37,217 nt of DNA, taken from the NCBI GenBank assembly GCA_028285035.1, contig JANQQF010000002.1, positions 1 to 37,217 of the forward strand, given 5' to 3'. The position numbers were made by a program, and so were the translations under genes. Of this stretch, positions 16,221 through 36,060 are shown one piece after another; within the stretch, counting starts at the first letter, position 1; each line of letters starts with the position of its first letter. The notes beneath the pieces were generated by a model. The model was not told where the DNA came from, made no database searches, and saw nothing but the letters and a program-made list of their open reading frames with translations. Source of the stretch: Phycisphaerae bacterium. GTDB lineage: Bacteria > Chloroflexota > Anaerolineae > 4572-78 > J111.

Positions 16221-19200
16221 TCACGCCACCGCTCTTGGCAAAATCTGCTCTAGAATCTGTGGATCTTTGATAGCTTTATCTTGAGCGAGCAATAAAACTT
16301 TTGAGATCACTTCGGCGGTTTTTGGATCATCATCGGCAAAGGGTAAAAAGATACGACCGCGATGCTGGCTGCGGACGGGGACGAGACAGAGATATCCGCC
16401 CGGTTGTTGATGTACCACGCCGCTACCAAGATGAATGGAATAGTGATTGAGTTGGCCATCAACCAGGACGTGATTTTCCTTGAGCCGTACGTTTTCAAAC
16501 TTGAGCAGTTGACAGGTTTCGCGGACGAGCGCGGCTCGCATCTCGACCGTGGAGGCCGTGGCCTCGGGGTCAACGCCACCACGATGGGCCACACTGACGA
16601 CCAAGTCAAGATCACGCATGACCTCGCTAAAGAGGCGGGGAGGAATTTCACCCAAAGGCAAGGGTTTCCTTTCCCCCTTCTCGGAAAAATAAACGGTTTC
16701 TAAGGTTAAGCCCTCAACCTCGGCGGGGGTGTAAAAGCCGAAATCGAAGGTAAGCCACGCAGTCAGTCCTGCATCGTGGAAGGTGCGTCCCACGCCTTCC
16801 TCAGGACGGACGACCCAGCCGCGCTGACCTAACAATGCCAACGCCTGCTTGGGATTGACTTGATGTCCACTGTATCGGGGAGATGCTGTCACCTCATCTG
16901 ATTCAGCGGTAGTGCGCACGTACAATTCTCGAAAGACCTGCTTAAAAGGCTGAATATATTCCTGGCGAAAACATTCGGCTTGCCAAAGATGCCACATCTT
17001 TGTCGTGAGCAAGTCGTAGGGATGGGCGATTCGCAATGTTTGTTCAGGGTGGAGCTGAGATACCTTGTTATCGAGACCGTGTAGCTGTTGCCCGTCGTTG
17101 CTAGGATAGCCAATGATTTCGTCCCCAACAAAGACCAGTTGGGTCAACATCGGCTTAAGAATGGGGTGGGTTAAGAGTTGTTGTAACTCAGCCCCTGTAA
17201 AGACGTCTCCCCGACACATGGCCTCCTCTAACGATTGATGCATGCGACTAGTTTGTTTGGTGATTTTTCGTTTGCGGATAAGCAGCTCAGCGACATCTGG
17301 CTGCTTCTTCAATTTGGCTGGGACCGCTTTGAGCTGACGCCCTTTTTTCTCAATGGTAAGCTGAGCCTCGCCTAACGAATCGATGGCTAGGGTGAGGGTG
17401 ACCTCATTATAGGTTAAGGTGATCGGCCCCTCGGCCAAATCAGCGATGGCGGCACCTTCCATCGCCCATTCCAGGCGTTGTGGATCGGGATACCCAGCTA
17501 TTCGAGCTAGGTTCTCCATGCCAACCTTCGCCGCTAGTTTTTCACTGGCTTGTCGCTGGGAGCCAAATTTTCGGCTACCCCGGACAAATTCCTGAATGAG
17601 CTCATAACGTCGGAGCATTGTTGCTTCAAGCGTATCATCCTCTGGCAAGGGCAGTAACCCTAACGCTCGGACTGAGTCTTGATGGCGTTTGGTGGTGATA
17701 CGCTCGACGATTTCGGCCTCATCAACTTGGCCTAACATCGCACTGGCAAAGAGCTGGGCACGTTTGTGTCCGCCGCCGCCAGACGTGTACTTGGCTGCTT
17801 TATCAAGCGTGCCCCAGCGTGTTTCACCAAGCGCCTGATAAACCTGTTGAAACCAAGCCACATCAACGGCCCCATCTAATAAATCCTGCCCACTCAGTGG
17901 GGTTCGCTCGCTCATTTGAGCTTGCCACAAGGCCTGAATATCTTGATCGATGCGCCAGCTATTATCTTTGGTGTGGGCGTGGAACCACCAAATCGCTTCG
18001 GCTAACTTAGCCCATTGCAGGGTGTGCTCAACGTGATTGGCCCATTGGGGCGCATACATCGCAACTTCGATTAATCGCTTTTCGGTGAGTACTAGAGCGG
18101 CTATTTCTGAGGCAAACTTTTCTGGGGTATCCTGTTCATCGGGTAGAGTAGAACGAATCAAATGGCTAAAGACCTGTTTCTTACTCTCCCCATCATAGGT
18201 CCAGCCTCGGACAAAATTCTCTTTCTTGAAGCCTTTGAGCAGCTTGACCAAGGTAGTTAACCCACCGCTGTAGCGTAGGGCCAAGGCAGGCTGTGAGGCG
18301 GCGGTGGGAATATCCCCGCGCTGGTGTTCAATTTCGATGATTCGTTCACGACACTTTGCGATGCAAGCCTGTAAGCCTGGGGCATTGGCCCATTCGGTCG
18401 TCCCATACTGCTGTTTGTAGCCGCTCAAGTTACGCAGATCCCAAAATCCCTGACCTCGTCGGTAATATCCATTTGATGATGATTTTCGGGGTCCAATAAG
18501 ATGGTAGTAAATATCTGCCTCAGTGGCTGCGCCTATTTGGTAGGCTGTCACAATCTCTTCCATCTCTGGTCGGCCTAAGCGTTTGGCCCATTTGAAGTCA
18601 TCAAGCCAGCGCAAAAGCTGCCATAATCGAGCGTAATGCGTCGGCTGCCATTCAGCCTTGTTAAAGGCTCGGTGAGAGCGAGCTAGGTTTAACCAACCTA
18701 AAACAGTCGTATATCCCTCCCTCCCCGTCACCCACTGAGCGGTATGAAGTGAATGAAAATTATGCTCTACCCCATTTAGAAGAAAATCAACACTGTGCTG
18801 GGGCGGAAAAATCTGAAGCATCCACCATAGAAGTGGTTTGATGATAGATTGATAACGTAGCTTGGAGAGATCAATTTTACCGTAAAGTAACGCTGTCAAT
18901 TTCTTAGCCACACGATCATCTTCATCTGACAGAATGCCATAGCGGCGTCTTTGAGTGTTAAACGCAATTATTGCTCGGAAAATTTCAAAGCCATCATCAT
19001 CGCGATATTTACCAGAGCGATCAGCCCACCACGTATGCCAAATTTCAGCCAAGGGAAGGTCTGCTAAATTTTCGGTTAATGCCTTTTGTTTATTCGGCTC
19101 TGGAAACCCCCAACCAATATTGCCTAGTAGTTGGGTTTGGGGGCCATTGTAAGTGTTGAGGGTAATTTCTGTCTCTCGATGTTCATGGATTAAATCATCC

Positions 19201-21170
19201 AAACCTTGTAAACAGGCAGCCGCAGCGGAAGAAACTTTGAAAGGATTGGTTTGAAATAGCCTAGCTTGTGATTTTGGTGGGATCGATTTGGATCGTTGTT
19301 TGGGGTCAAACAGCCCTAACCCATCATCCAAGGTAGCTGGTGTCGGCTGCTTATCTAAAATGTGGGTCAAGAAGGTTTGTTCGGTTTCATTCAAACGTGG
19401 ATGTTGCTGCTGATATTGTTTGGCTGTGTCCTGGACAAATCTAGTCAGGCGTTTCTGTTGCTCAAGCTGATGTAGGAGTTCCAAGCCGGCCTGACGCTGT
19501 TTGATATTTTTGGCTGTCAGCAATCGGTCAGCACTGGCCTGAATGAGCTTACTTTTTTGGGCCAATATCATCCCCAGAATTCCCCGGCGCAGATCGCCGG
19601 CCTGACGGGTGAGATAGCCCTCAAGCTGCTCGATTTCTGGCTCGGTTAAACGCATTTTTTTGGCGACCTCAATGGCACTTCTACGAACATGCTGACTGCG
19701 GTCACCCATTAACTGAATAATCATCGTTCGGGTTTGCTCATCCCAGCCTGTCTTATCTTTTCCAATTAGATTTGAGATAATGTAACTGCGTCTGTGGATG
19801 CTCATCAGGTTGATGTAGGGATAGAGGTGGCTATATGATCGTTCTGCTAAGGCGGGGACAAGGGTATCTGCTAATTGTTGCTTATCAGCCGTAAGAGCGA
19901 GCCAGGACCAGACCAAGGGTTCAAGCTGTTTTTGTTTTGCTGGAAAATGAGGAATCGCTAATTCGAGGCGATCAAATAGAGTTGCTGAAACTTCATCATG
20001 AGCGTGATGATTGATTTGCAAAGCCTGAAAGGCAACGGTAGCAATACGTAAATCAGAATGGTTAAGTTGGGGTAATAATAAGGTTTTCGCTTCGGGTAAT
20101 TTTAGCAGGGCTAGAAAATAGGTGCCGACGAATTGATGCTCCAATTTAGGGTGCTGTAATAATGCTTTGGTGTGTGTCAACGCAACCTCCGCGTCACTAA
20201 AAGCGGCGATACACAAAGCGTTGTAGATTTGTTGGGGTTCATCACTTTCTAAGGCGGCTCGTTGTTGCTCTGGCTGATGGAGCAAGTCATTCAACTGCTC
20301 TAAAATGCGTTGGACCGTGCGGGTATTGGCGGCCTCCCATCGCAAACCAAACCAAACATCGACTGCTCGTACAACACTGCTAAAACGGACTAGATTTTGC
20401 TCGCAAATGAGATGGACCATTCGTTTGAAGGCGGTTGGGTGGGCCTCATCAACCGTTTCTAAGATCACCTGTCGTAGGCCTTCTTGGCGTTGGGCCGCAA
20501 TCAATAACTTTTCCACCATCTCCCAGCCTTCAGGTCGGGAGGCACTGAGCAAGCCCTGCACAACATGCCGTCCCATTGCGCCGATTTCGTGCTCACCTTT
20601 GGCTGAGGCCATCAGGATATCAAAGACTTGCTTACCCGTCTCTGGACAGGCATCAATCGTCGCCGCAAATAAAACACCAAGAGCATTATTCTGTCTATAA
20701 CTGCTAAGGTAAGGTGCCCATTGGGCAAACCAGACCACATCTTGCTCATACTGTTGTGCTGCGTATAGCAATCGACGGAGCCAATTACTTCTGCGTGACA
20801 ATGTCAACTGTGGTGAATTGGGGGTGCGAAAGGCTCGTCGATAACCGCCCACTTGATAAGGGAACTTTTTCTGGGCTTGCCACGCCATCTCAACCTGTGG
20901 GGCTAATTTTGGGTATAAGCAGGTAAAGATAGTGATACGATCTACCTCAGGCATTGTCTCTAGATTTTGAGTTGCTGCCTCATACGCTTCGCTATTGGTC
21001 CGCCAATCACTCGATTTGAATGACTTACCATCTTCATCATACCCCAATAAATTCCAGGTTGTTCCCTGTAGCGACCGGGGTAATTTGGCAATAGCCTGCT
21101 TGACCCGTGCCTGACCGTTCTCGACCTGAGCCTGTTCCAACATCTCTTTAGCTGTATCTGGGTTAAGCAT
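16221..21170 (-). CDS. Giant HEAT-like repeat protein with C-terminal DUF4132 domain
   Basis: From ATG 21170 the protein has 1649 residues; GGGAGG precedes this start, and a start 27 bases upstream is less likely. The first roughly 650 residues look like helical HEAT-type repeats. A central segment near 1185-1235 carries the conserved RYELIQEFVRGSRKFGSQRQ motif found in DUF4132/DUF5724 proteins. The DUF4132 part, about 1290 to the end, includes QPFKQVFRELY and GYLCLVPV. E. coli YehI belongs to this family and sits with a MoxR-type ATPase (YehL), a VWA protein (YehP) and a SWIM protein (YehQ). None of those partners is here. The biochemical function is unknown. Its stop is followed by a strong terminator. 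Confidence 0.85.
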   Translation of the reverse strand: MLNPDTAKEMLEQAQVENGQARVKQAIAKLPRSLQGTTWNLLGYDEDGKSFKSSDWRTNSEAYEAATQNLETMPEVDRITIFTCLYPKLAPQVEMAWQAQKKFPYQVGGYRRAFRTPNSPQLTLSRRSNWLRRLLYAAQQYEQDVVWFAQWAPYLSSYRQNNALGVLFAATIDACPETGKQVFDILMASAKGEHEIGAMGRHVVQGLLSASRPEGWEMVEKLLIAAQRQEGLRQVILETVDEAHPTAFKRMVHLICEQNLVRFSSVVRAVDVWFGLRWEAANTRTVQRILEQLNDLLHQPEQQRAALESDEPQQIYNALCIAAFSDAEVALTHTKALLQHPKLEHQFVGTYFLALLKLPEAKTLLLPQLNHSDLRIATVAFQALQINHHAHDEVSATLFDRLELAIPHFPAKQKQLEPLVWSWLALTADKQQLADTLVPALAERSYSHLYPYINLMSIHRRSYIISNLIGKDKTGWDEQTRTMIIQLMGDRSQHVRRSAIEVAKKMRLTEPEIEQLEGYLTRQAGDLRRGILGMILAQKSKLIQASADRLLTAKNIKQRQAGLELLHQLEQQKRLTRFVQDTAKQYQQQHPRLNETEQTFLTHILDKQPTPATLDDGLGLFDPKQRSKSIPPKSQARLFQTNPFKVSSAAAACLQGLDDLIHEHRETEITLNTYNGPQTQLLGNIGWGFPEPNKQKALTENLADLPLAEIWHTWWADRSGKYRDDDGFEIFRAIIAFNTQRRRYGILSDEDDRVAKKLTALLYGKIDLSKLRYQSIIKPLLWWMLQIFPPQHSVDFLLNGVEHNFHSLHTAQWVTGREGYTTVLGWLNLARSHRAFNKAEWQPTHYARLWQLLRWLDDFKWAKRLGRPEMEEIVTAYQIGAATEADIYYHLIGPRKSSSNGYYRRGQGFWDLRNLSGYKQQYGTTEWANAPGLQACIAKCRERIIEIEHQRGDIPTAASQPALALRYSGGLTTLVKLLKGFKKENFVRGWTYDGESKKQVFSHLIRSTLPDEQDTPEKFASEIAALVLTEKRLIEVAMYAPQWANHVEHTLQWAKLAEAIWWFHAHTKDNSWRIDQDIQALWQAQMSERTPLSGQDLLDGAVDVAWFQQVYQALGETRWGTLDKAAKYTSGGGGHKRAQLFASAMLGQVDEAEIVERITTKRHQDSVRALGLLPLPEDDTLEATMLRRYELIQEFVRGSRKFGSQRQASEKLAAKVGMENLARIAGYPDPQRLEWAMEGAAIADLAEGPITLTYNEVTLTLAIDSLGEAQLTIEKKGRQLKAVPAKLKKQPDVAELLIRKRKITKQTSRMHQSLEEAMCRGDVFTGAELQQLLTHPILKPMLTQLVFVGDEIIGYPSNDGQQLHGLDNKVSQLHPEQTLRIAHPYDLLTTKMWHLWQAECFRQEYIQPFKQVFRELYVRTTAESDEVTASPRYSGHQVNPKQALALLGQRGWVVRPEEGVGRTFHDAGLTAWLTFDFGFYTPAEVEGLTLETVYFSEKGERKPLPLGEIPPRLFSEVMRDLDLVVSVAHRGGVDPEATASTVEMRAALVRETCQLLKFENVRLKENHVLVDGQLNHYSIHLGSGVVHQQPGGYLCLVPVRSQHRGRIFLPFADDDPKTAEVISKVLLLAQDKAIKDPQILEQILPRAVA

Positions 21171-21174
21171 AATT

Positions 21175-21612
21175 TCATCCTCCCGCCAATGGAACAAGTC
21201 TAATAAAGGTCACGGTGCTGTTTGGGCTAATGTAGACCGTTGCATCTAAATCTGTTTTTTGGGAATTGTCGAGAAAAACATAGTAGAGACCATCTTCAAA
21301 GGCTTGGAGGGCAACTGCGATGGCAGAGTCGTCTGAGACATCTTGTATCAGCTCATGACCACCTGGATCAATCTTTCCCACGATCACTGCGGTTGAGATT
21401 TCTTGGGCCGTCAAGGCGTGAAACAAACGACGTTCTTCCTGGCGGTGTCGAAAGGCTTCGACCTCTTCCAAAACAATATGCTGAATCAAATCACGCAAGG
21501 TTGTTTGGCCACCAGAGGTTTGCCATTGGGGATGATAGGGGATTGAATATTGGGGGGATAACTGCCGTTTTTGACCTACCTGTCTACTTTCTACTGTGAT
21601 GGTTGTTGTCAT
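21175..21612 (-). CDS. Conserved small protein, partner of the DUF4132 gene
   Basis: This 145-residue protein starts at ATG 21612 behind AGGAGA; a TTG 33 bases upstream is not convincing. It contains TLRDLIQHIVLEEVEAFRHR, EERRLFHALTAQEI and the ending VTFIRLVPLAGG. I recall similar small proteins next to DUF4132 genes in other phyla, but I cannot name a function. It has no signal peptide or membrane segment. Its stop is followed 4 bases later by the giant gene's ATG, and its last codons supply that gene's ribosome site, so the two are coupled and probably act together. Confidence 0.75.
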   Translation of the reverse strand: MTTTITVESRQVGQKRQLSPQYSIPYHPQWQTSGGQTTLRDLIQHIVLEEVEAFRHRQEERRLFHALTAQEISTAVIVGKIDPGGHELIQDVSDDSAIAVALQAFEDGLYYVFLDNSQKTDLDATVYISPNSTVTFIRLVPLAGG

Positions 21613-32535: not shown

Positions 32536-32563
32536 TCGGGAGAAGATAAAATTTTTCTCCCGA
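32536..32563 (+). terminator. Hairpin between SnoaL-like and LysW-like genes
   Basis: TCGGGAGAA and TTCTCCCGA form a perfect 9-bp stem, with a T-run inside the loop side and AT-rich sequence after it. It probably ends the upstream transcript, which makes the LysW-like gene the first gene of a new unit. Confidence 0.6.
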
Positions 32564-32613: not shown

Positions 32614-32886
32614 ATGTCATCAGAAGTGCCAAAAATTCAGATAGTTTGTCCTGATTGTGAGACAGAGATTATGTTGGAGACCATTCAGTTAGATCAAAAA
32701 TTCACCTGCCCAGAGTGTTGGGCCTATCTCCAAATTACCAACTTGCATCCACCAGAAGCCAATTGGGTGGTTGAGGAGGAGGAATTTGATTTTGAGTTAC
32801 GTGAAGATGTATTTGCTTCCAAAAGTAGCTGGCTCACAGATGAAGATTTTGACTTAGAACTAACCTGGAAAGAAGAGGAAGAGTAG
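32614..32886 (+). CDS. LysW-like zinc-ribbon protein with a duplicated acidic tail
   Basis: This 90-residue protein resembles LysW, the amino-group carrier protein of lysine/arginine/ornithine synthesis. The zinc ribbon has C12, C15, C32 and C35 (CPDCETEI, CPECWAYL), followed by ITNLHPPE, which matches the LysW layout. The tail is strongly acidic and contains a duplicated unit: W51 to L62 (VVEEEEFDFEL) and W73 to L83 (LTDEDFDLEL). It ends WKEEEE. LysW ends EDWGE, and its terminal Glu is the amino acid acceptor of a RimK-family ligase. Here a RimK gene lies two genes downstream, so this protein is a plausible substrate. Neither acceptor role nor cargo is proven. Confidence 0.75.
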   Translation: MSSEVPKIQIVCPDCETEIMLETIQLDQKFTCPECWAYLQITNLHPPEANWVVEEEEFDFELREDVFASKSSWLTDEDFDLELTWKEEEE

Positions 32887-32899
32887 ATTTATTGATACC

Positions 32900-33382
32900 A
32901 TGGATAGAATAATAATTGGTTGGCGTGAGTGGGCTGTATTACCCGAACTAAATATTCAGGCAGTTAAAGTGAAAATCGATACAGGGGCGCGTACCTCAGC
33001 GTTACATGCGGTTGATATTGAAACATTTCACGCTGATGGGCGACATCAGGTACGATTTGCTGTTTATCCACTGGTCAAACGAACCGATATCAAGGTTCAA
33101 TGTGTAGCCGATGTTGTTGATCAACGGGTTGTGCGTGACTCAGGAGGGCACGAAGAAAAGCGACTGGTTATTCGCACCCCCTTTCGGATTGGCACATCGG
33201 AGTGGCCCATTGAAATCACCTTAACCAACCGAGAAACAATGCGATTTCGAATGTTGCTAGGGCGAGTGGCTTTACAAAATAGAGTATTTATTGACCCGGC
33301 GAAATCTTACCTGCAAGGCAAGACCCTAAAAAACACTTATCAAACAATTTATCCCAAATCAGGTTATAACAAGCCTAAATAA
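32900..33382 (+). CDS. RimB-type retropepsin-like protease (ATP-dependent zinc protease family)
   Basis: This 160-residue protein belongs to the COG4067/PF05618 family, annotated as ATP-dependent zinc protease and structurally retropepsin-like. The catalytic-type motif KIDTGARTSALHA (D27) and the family's IIGWREW start, FRMLLGR and FIDPAKSY are present. In Pseudomonas, RimB of this family acts with RimK on ribosomal protein S6. The gene starts 13 bases after the LysW-like gene and 32 bases before rimK, so all three are likely co-transcribed. It may trim the Glu tails that RimK makes, which is inference. Confidence 0.87.
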   Translation: MDRIIIGWREWAVLPELNIQAVKVKIDTGARTSALHAVDIETFHADGRHQVRFAVYPLVKRTDIKVQCVADVVDQRVVRDSGGHEEKRLVIRTPFRIGTSEWPIEITLTNRETMRFRMLLGRVALQNRVFIDPAKSYLQGKTLKNTYQTIYPKSGYNKPK

Positions 33383-33414
33383 CCCTTGGAATGTATAAAT
33401 GAAGGAGGCCCCTT

Positions 33415-34320
33415 ATGAAAATTGGTATTCTCTCCCGTAAATCGGAGTTATATTCGACACGTCGCCTAGTTGAGGCTGGAGAACAACGCGGCCACGAAGT
33501 TCATGTGATTGATACCCTACGCTGTTACATGAACATCACCTCAAACAATCCTGAAGTGCATTATGAAGGGCAGAAATTGGAAGGCTTTGATGCTATTATT
33601 CCCCGAATTGGGGCTTCAATCACCTTTTATGGCACAGCCGTGCTGCGTCAATTTGAAATGATGGGCGTCTTTCCCGTGAATGAGTCGGTGGCTATTACCC
33701 GCTCACGCGACAAACTACGAGCGATGCAACTTTTGGCACGTAAGGGGGTTGGTTTGCCAGTGACGGGATTTGCGCACTATCCCGACAATACCAAGGATTT
33801 GATCACCATGGTTGGTGATGCCCCTGTCATTGTGAAGCTTTTGCAAGGGACACAGGGCGTTGGTGTTGTCTTAGCGGAAACCCGTAAAGCTGCCGAGAGT
33901 GTGACCGAGGCCTTTCGGGGCTTAAAGGTGCCTTTTTTGGTTCAAGAGTTTATCAAAGAAGCGGGTGGGGCTGATTTACGATGTTTGGTTGTTGGTGATC
34001 GGGTAGTGGCGGCCATGTTACGGCAAGGTGCAGAAGGTGAGTTTCGCTCCAATCTTCATCGCGGCGGCAGTGCCAAAGTCGTTAGAATTAGCCCAGATGA
34101 ACGGGCCACGGCCATTCGAGCAGCTAAGATCATGGGGCTTAATGTCGCTGGTGTGGATATTCTGCGGTCAGAGCGTGGCCCAGTAGTGATGGAGGTCAAC
34201 TCGTCACCAGGGCTACAAGGCATTGAAACGGCGACGGGTAAAGATGTGGCGGGATTGATCGTCCACTTCATTGAAAAGAACGCCAAATTGGGCCGCACGC
34301 GAACCAAAGGGAAAGGTTAG
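33415..34320 (+). CDS. rimK: RimK ATP-grasp alpha-L-glutamate ligase
   Basis: This 301-residue protein is close to E. coli RimK, which adds Glu residues to the C-terminus of ribosomal protein S6. Visible are the N-terminal [21 protein letters not shown], the ATP-binding [38 protein letters not shown] and the metal site [14 protein letters not shown]. The C-terminus is basic ([14 protein letters not shown]). AAGGAGG precedes the start. The next gene begins 2 bases after its stop. Substrates could be S6 or the acidic LysW-like protein encoded two genes upstream. The same ATP-grasp family includes LysX, which loads LysW. Confidence 0.93.
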
Positions 34321-34322
34321 GT

Positions 34323-35351
34323 ATGAGCCAACCGCTTTGTTTTGGTGGGGTTGAGGTTAAGCCTGGCCAAAATGTTACCATTGAGTTGCCTATTGCCAAA
34401 TTGTATACCCACACCGAATTGAAAATGCCGATTCGGGTGATACGTGGGAAAAAAGAAGGCCCGCGTCTCTTTATCAGCGCGGCGATTCATGGCGATGAAA
34501 TCAATGGTGTTGAAATTATTCGAGGATTGCTCAAACGAAAAGTATTGCAGCGTTTGCGAGGGGCATTAATTATTGTTCCGGTGGTAAATGTTTTTGGCTT
34601 TATCAATCGTTCTCGCTATCTACCCGATCGACGGGATTTGAATCGCTACTTTCCAGGCTCGCCAAATGGCTCCTTGGCCGCCCGAATTGCTCATCTATTT
34701 ATGACCGAAATTGTGGCGAATGCAACCCACGGGATCGATTTACATACGGGTTCTAATCATCGGGACAATTTGCCCCAAATCCGAGCCTGTCTGGATGATC
34801 CAGCTACCGAGCAACTGGCCCAAGCCTTTGGCGCACCCGTCATTTTGGATGCCAATCTCCGGGATGGTTCGATGCGTCAGGCCGTGTTTGAAGAAGGCAA
34901 GCCGATGTTGCTTTATGAAGCGGGGGAGGCCCTCCGCTTTAATCCAACGGCGATTCGGGTGGGCATCGAAGGCATTTTGGCGGTGATGCGAGCCATTGGT
35001 ATGCTGTCTACTTCATATCGCCCCCGAAGACGGGTCAAACCTGTGGTCGCTCGCCACAACACCTGGGTTCGTGCTCAAAAAAGTGGTATTCTCCGCACTA
35101 AGACCAAGCTAGGGGTGACAGTCACAAAAGGCCAACTTTTGGGCGAGATCACAGACCCATTTGGGGAAGAAGGTGAACCGATCCATGCCTCAGTTTCCGG
35201 CGTTGTTATTGGACAGGTGAACCTTCCCCTTGTCAATCGAGGTGAAGGCCTCTTTCACTTGGCGAGTTTTGAGAGTACAGAAGCCATTGAAGCGTCACTT
35301 GAAGCCTTTCATACCGAATTTGGTCCCGATGACCTCTCTCAATTGACCTAA
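34323..35351 (+). CDS. Succinylglutamate desuccinylase/aspartoacylase-like M14 zinc hydrolase
   Basis: This 342-residue protein is of the AstE/AspA family (COG3608), zinc carboxypeptidase-like enzymes that cut N-acyl amino acids or C-terminal residues. The zinc ligands are H56 and E59 (AAIHGDEINGVEI) and H141 (IDLHTGSNHR), with a catalytic-type Glu199 (LLYEAGE). The C-terminal part from about 260 (GVTVTKGQLLGEITD, then HASVSGVVIGQ) is the beta-barrel typical of the family. It is coupled tightly to rimK. It could release the amino acid that RimK attached, the role LysK plays in LysW systems; this is inference. Confidence 0.88.
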   Translation: MSQPLCFGGVEVKPGQNVTIELPIAKLYTHTELKMPIRVIRGKKEGPRLFISAAIHGDEINGVEIIRGLLKRKVLQRLRGALIIVPVVNVFGFINRSRYLPDRRDLNRYFPGSPNGSLAARIAHLFMTEIVANATHGIDLHTGSNHRDNLPQIRACLDDPATEQLAQAFGAPVILDANLRDGSMRQAVFEEGKPMLLYEAGEALRFNPTAIRVGIEGILAVMRAIGMLSTSYRPRRRVKPVVARHNTWVRAQKSGILRTKTKLGVTVTKGQLLGEITDPFGEEGEPIHASVSGVVIGQVNLPLVNRGEGLFHLASFESTEAIEASLEAFHTEFGPDDLSQLT

Positions 35352-35375
35352 ATCAATACCTCACCTTTATAGTAA

Positions 35376-35430
35376 CCTGAGCCTGCCGAAGGTGATTCTT
35401 GGCCGGAATGTCGCCTTCGACAAGCTCGGG
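35376..35430. repeat. Hairpin repeat of the GAGC-TG-CGAAGG type
   Basis: CCTGAGCCTGCCGAAGG (35376-35392) and CCTTCGACAAGCTCGGG (35414-35430) are inverted copies with three mismatches. Palindromes of this kind are widespread in many bacterial genomes. It lies shortly after the AstE-like gene. Confidence 0.75.
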
Positions 35431-35523
35431 CTAAGAAGTTTTTATCTAAATGCGTAACTCCTATTTTATACAAAAATGTCACAATTCCCCCTTTTTTAAC
35501 ACACAATTGATAACTATTTTCCA

Positions 35524-35551
35524 TTCGATTTGCACAATCTTTGGTTATGAT
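35524..35551 (+). promoter_or_regulatory. Weak promoter candidate before the double zinc-ribbon gene
   Basis: TATGAT (35546-35551) has TTCGAT (35524-35529) 16 bases upstream. The match is modest. The rest of the 295-base gap after the hairpin repeat shows nothing else. Confidence 0.25.
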
Positions 35552-35646
35552 AAGGCGGTTTAGAGATGATGCCTCAGGAGAACAGTCATTAAACGCCTAT
35601 TGGGGTAATCTCAGCATAATCAAAGATAAATGTATGGAATTTTTTC

Positions 35647-36060
35647 ATGAAAAAGATACTTTGTCCAGAGTGTGACAATCAATTAAAACTTGGTACGCGC
35701 CCCCATCGGGGGCAACGGGTGAATTGTGTGCAGTGTCGAATGGCTTGGGTGGTGACAGCCCTTAACCCTATTGAACTGGAGGAGCGTGTCCTCCAACAGG
35801 CAACAACTAAAAAGAAAATGCCTCACAGTGTGGACCTTCCTTGCCCTAACTGTGACAAGGATATCAAAGTCAATGGACAGGCTCATATCGGTCAGATATT
35901 ACTTTGCCCGGCTTGTCAAACGACCCTGGAGGTTATCAACAATTATCCGCTTGATTTAGATATATCATCACAGATATCGTATCGACGAAACATGATGAAG
36001 CAGGCTCAAAAAAGACATAACTTGGAACAAGGTGAGCGTTATGGCATTAGCTACTCTTAA
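35647..36060 (+). CDS. Protein with two LysW-like zinc ribbons
   Basis: This 137-residue protein contains two zinc ribbons of the LysW N-terminal type. The first has C6, C9, C27 and C30 (CPECDNQL, CVQCRMAW) followed by VTALNPIELE. The second has C66, C69, C87 and C90 (CPNCDKDI, CPACQTTLEV) followed by INNYPLDLD. The spacer between Cys pairs and the NP.ELE-type ending match LysW. The C-terminus (ERYGISYS) is not acidic and lacks the EDWGE acceptor, so it may be an adaptor or scaffold instead of a loaded carrier. Its last 20 bases overlap the YitT gene. Confidence 0.75.
   Translation: MKKILCPECDNQLKLGTRPHRGQRVNCVQCRMAWVVTALNPIELEERVLQQATTKKKMPHSVDLPCPNCDKDIKVNGQAHIGQILLCPACQTTLEVINNYPLDLDISSQISYRRNMMKQAQKRHNLEQGERYGISYS

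Follow-up and report, generated by a model that had tools for sequence, protein, structure and literature searches.

In many bacteria the acceptor of RimK is unclear, and the question can be tested concretely where a plausible one is encoded next to the enzymes. A locus of this kind lies at positions 32614..36060 of the window, the 37,217 nucleotides (positions 1 to 37,217, forward strand) analysed from contig JANQQF010000002.1 of a Phycisphaerae bacterium (assembly GCA_028285035.1; Chloroflexota in GTDB). Its genes run on the plus strand in the order small LysW-like protein, RimB-type protease, RimK, AstE-like hydrolase and second LysW-like protein; the three enzymes are referred to as the trio. 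Does the trio act on the small protein? The most far-reaching reading, tentative and with a probability of about 0.27, is a dedicated bacterial polyglutamylation cycle. A LysW-fold protein would be synthesised with an encoded glutamate primer, RimK would lengthen this primer, RimB would trim the chain to a length set by its own minimum run, and the AstE-family hydrolase would recover the glutamate.

RimK (33415..34320, plus strand), an ATP-grasp alpha-L-glutamate ligase whose gene starts 32 bp past that of RimB, scored 474.5 bits against the NCBIfam RimK equivalog (cut-off 331), and cyanophycin synthases turn up in its sequence comparison. The RimB-type protein (32900..33382, plus strand), a retropepsin-like polyglutamate endopeptidase, matched PF05618 with 126.6 bits against a cut-off of 27. 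It carries the catalytic DTG of a DTGA motif within KIDTGART (residues 25-32), its gene adjoins rimK, and no signal peptide was seen by eye. Its score with the RimB equivalog, 133 bits, is under the cut-off of 200 but is still the highest among the RimB/RloA models. The third protein (34323..35351, plus strand; start 2 bp past RimK), an AstE/AspA/DoeB/CphZ-type hydrolase, belongs to the AstE/AspA/DoeB superfamily by its catalytic domain (PF24827, 138.9 bits, cut-off 25). Residues H56, E59, H141 and E199, which we take to be of the metal-site type, are invariant across 38 sequences. The NCBIfam cut-offs for DoeB, AstE and aspartoacylase (AspA) proper were missed (98.6 against 402.7, 19.8 against 305.65 and 19.3 against 180 bits, respectively). 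The protein is proposed to be a terminal hydrolase of glutamyl chains, and the trio also suggests a third step, terminal hydrolysis, beyond RimK and RimB. An earlier note on this DNA had named the three enzymes from the sequence.

Two known modules resemble the trio. As in the Pseudomonas RimABK module for ribosome modification, a RimB-type protease directly precedes a clear RimK equivalog, whereas the window locus adds the AstE-like hydrolase, common to many other bacteria, and a Glu-tailed LysW-like protein, so far only at this locus; no RimA was seen. The cyanophycin module of CphA1, cyanophycinase and CphZ likewise combines a RimK-related synthetase, a depolymerase and an AstE-family terminal hydrolase, yet it has no protein acceptor of this kind and uses a different polymer and depolymerase family. 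Its CphZ-type hydrolase is described in PMC10206079.

The small LysW-like protein (32614..32886, plus strand) gave profile scores of 25.6 and 21.0 bits. Its acidic tail, of net charge -14, has one EEEE run in its interior and a second at the terminus, where it finishes in WKEEEE. The second, double LysW-like protein (35647..36060, plus strand) reached 51.4 bits (cut-off 27), matched over two stretches, and stayed under the cut-offs of TIGR01206 (33.8/53.2) and NF041070 (39.4/75); it ends in GISYS and has a net charge of +6. The earlier observation that two LysW-type zinc-ribbon proteins flank a packed protease-ligase-hydrolase trio was borne out. Such proteins raise the alternative of a LysW/ArgW amino-group carrier pathway, which is very unlikely: the ligase scores as a RimK equivalog and falls short of the LysX model (132.6 bits, cut-off 275.6), and among the 28 window proteins scanned there was no LysZ, LysY, LysJ or LysK and no member of the pathway's kinase, reductase and aminotransferase families. 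The note had likewise held that this is not ordinary lysine or arginine synthesis.

Judged from its residues, the end of the small acidic zinc protein looks like a natural start for a glutamate chain. Because of this resemblance, and because its gene precedes the trio, the sequence suggests that the protein may be the trio's own target. It could instead be a pseudo-substrate or regulator, its two EEEE runs binding a positively charged channel such as that reported for RloA proteases (PMC12239564), much as some Pseudomonas Rim operons carry the extra regulator RimA (PMC10092738). A pseudo-substrate would not need a free terminal Glu run, however, and RimA is described there as a cyclic di-GMP phosphodiesterase, unlike a zinc ribbon, making this role improbable. 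If the polyglutamylation cycle is real, it would make a bacterial equivalent of the polyglutamylation of tubulin, or else a glutamate store primed by a protein. With the eukaryotic TTLL ligases and CCP deglutamylases only the fold is known to be shared; on tubulin the first Glu is attached to a side chain.

Relatives' loci were taken as the best 80 of at least 580 matches from one scan of genome contigs. RimB, RimK and AstE are adjacent in the same order in 43 of the 80, RimB-RimK occurs without detected AstE in 20, and 17 show other arrangements, several at contig ends. The trio is a common bacterial enzyme set for building and trimming glutamate chains. An Acaryochloris plasmid also carries it. 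RimK of this type, counted at E 1e-90 or better in two other phyla, is sparse: 2/297 genomes in the phylum of a Desulfobulbaceae locus (G073) and 8/295 in that of a Nitrospirota locus (G001). Of 10 loci taken from around such matches, two of them repeats of earlier loci, 8 have the complete trio. The patchiness combined with high identity fits horizontal transfer, and horizontal spread of rim genes is likewise suggested in PMC11957791. Across the best 80 loci, no LysW-like or EEE-tailed gene was found up to 6 kb from RimK (21 pattern hits, judged by eye). The note's reading, with RimK extending a Glu tail that the other enzymes trim, is supported in part.

S6 tails bear on the acceptor question. 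Among 42 trio genomes with S6 found, 22 lack a terminal Glu and 20 end in it, against 18/20 RimB-RimK-only genomes (Fisher p 0.002, raw counts). After collapsing by lineage the figures were 6/24 and 4/6 (p 0.14), so the contrast is not relied on and was dropped as proof of another trio substrate. A smaller trio subset (6/23, p 3.6e-5) had omitted most Vibrio and Marinobacter, whose S6 end in Glu; S6 ends in EEE in 9/10 Marinobacter trio genomes (L148, L149, L151, L153, L154, L155, L157, L158, L159). The counts exclude one trio genome without an S6 match (L074) and the 17 other arrangements, of which four were checked (L017, L030, L036, L066; 1/4 Glu-ended). PMC11957791 reports some RimK bacteria without Glu-ended S6 and raises other targets as a prospect.

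No link of RimK to an AstE-like hydrolase or LysW-like acceptor appeared among titles and abstract openings of the openly licensed matches listed. The trio may be mentioned in the 2009 survey by Iyer and colleagues of the gene neighbourhoods of amidoligases. In RimB/RimK papers no term for the terminal hydrolysis step was found: desuccinylase and AstE are absent from PMC10092738, desuccinylase from PMC12239564 and succinylglutamate from PMC11957791.

A strong hairpin 3' of the AstE-like gene (35365..35438, plus strand; -32.6 kcal/mol, z -3.12, 1/200 shuffles folding equally well) is the probable end of the unit, although the terminator scan made no call there. That scan gave 5 sites against 3.9 expected, one at 32536..32563 (plus strand; z -3.55, 1/200 shuffles).

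Several minor observations were made. At L122 (1003-1497) the open reading frame over the RimB match terminates in EEE, and RimB itself might, from this ending, be a RimK substrate. A related gene starts about 1.4 kb 5' of RimK in 14/43 trio loci, including L021-L024, L026, L039, L044, L045, L049, L051, L058 and L062; 9 of these 12 displayed loci are Marinobacter. It presumably resembles a small mechanosensitive channel, which would fit a glutamate or osmotic role. A member of the RimK/LysX family that shares 30% identity with the window RimK (E 3.8e-17) is encoded on Thermomicrobium roseum plasmid NC_011961 (L082, 154076-154846). Elsewhere, the window encodes a 1658-aa protein with DUF5724, DUF4132 and DUF7737 domains (16221-21197) and holds a direct repeat of five overlapping copies with 18-nt spacing (959-1074).
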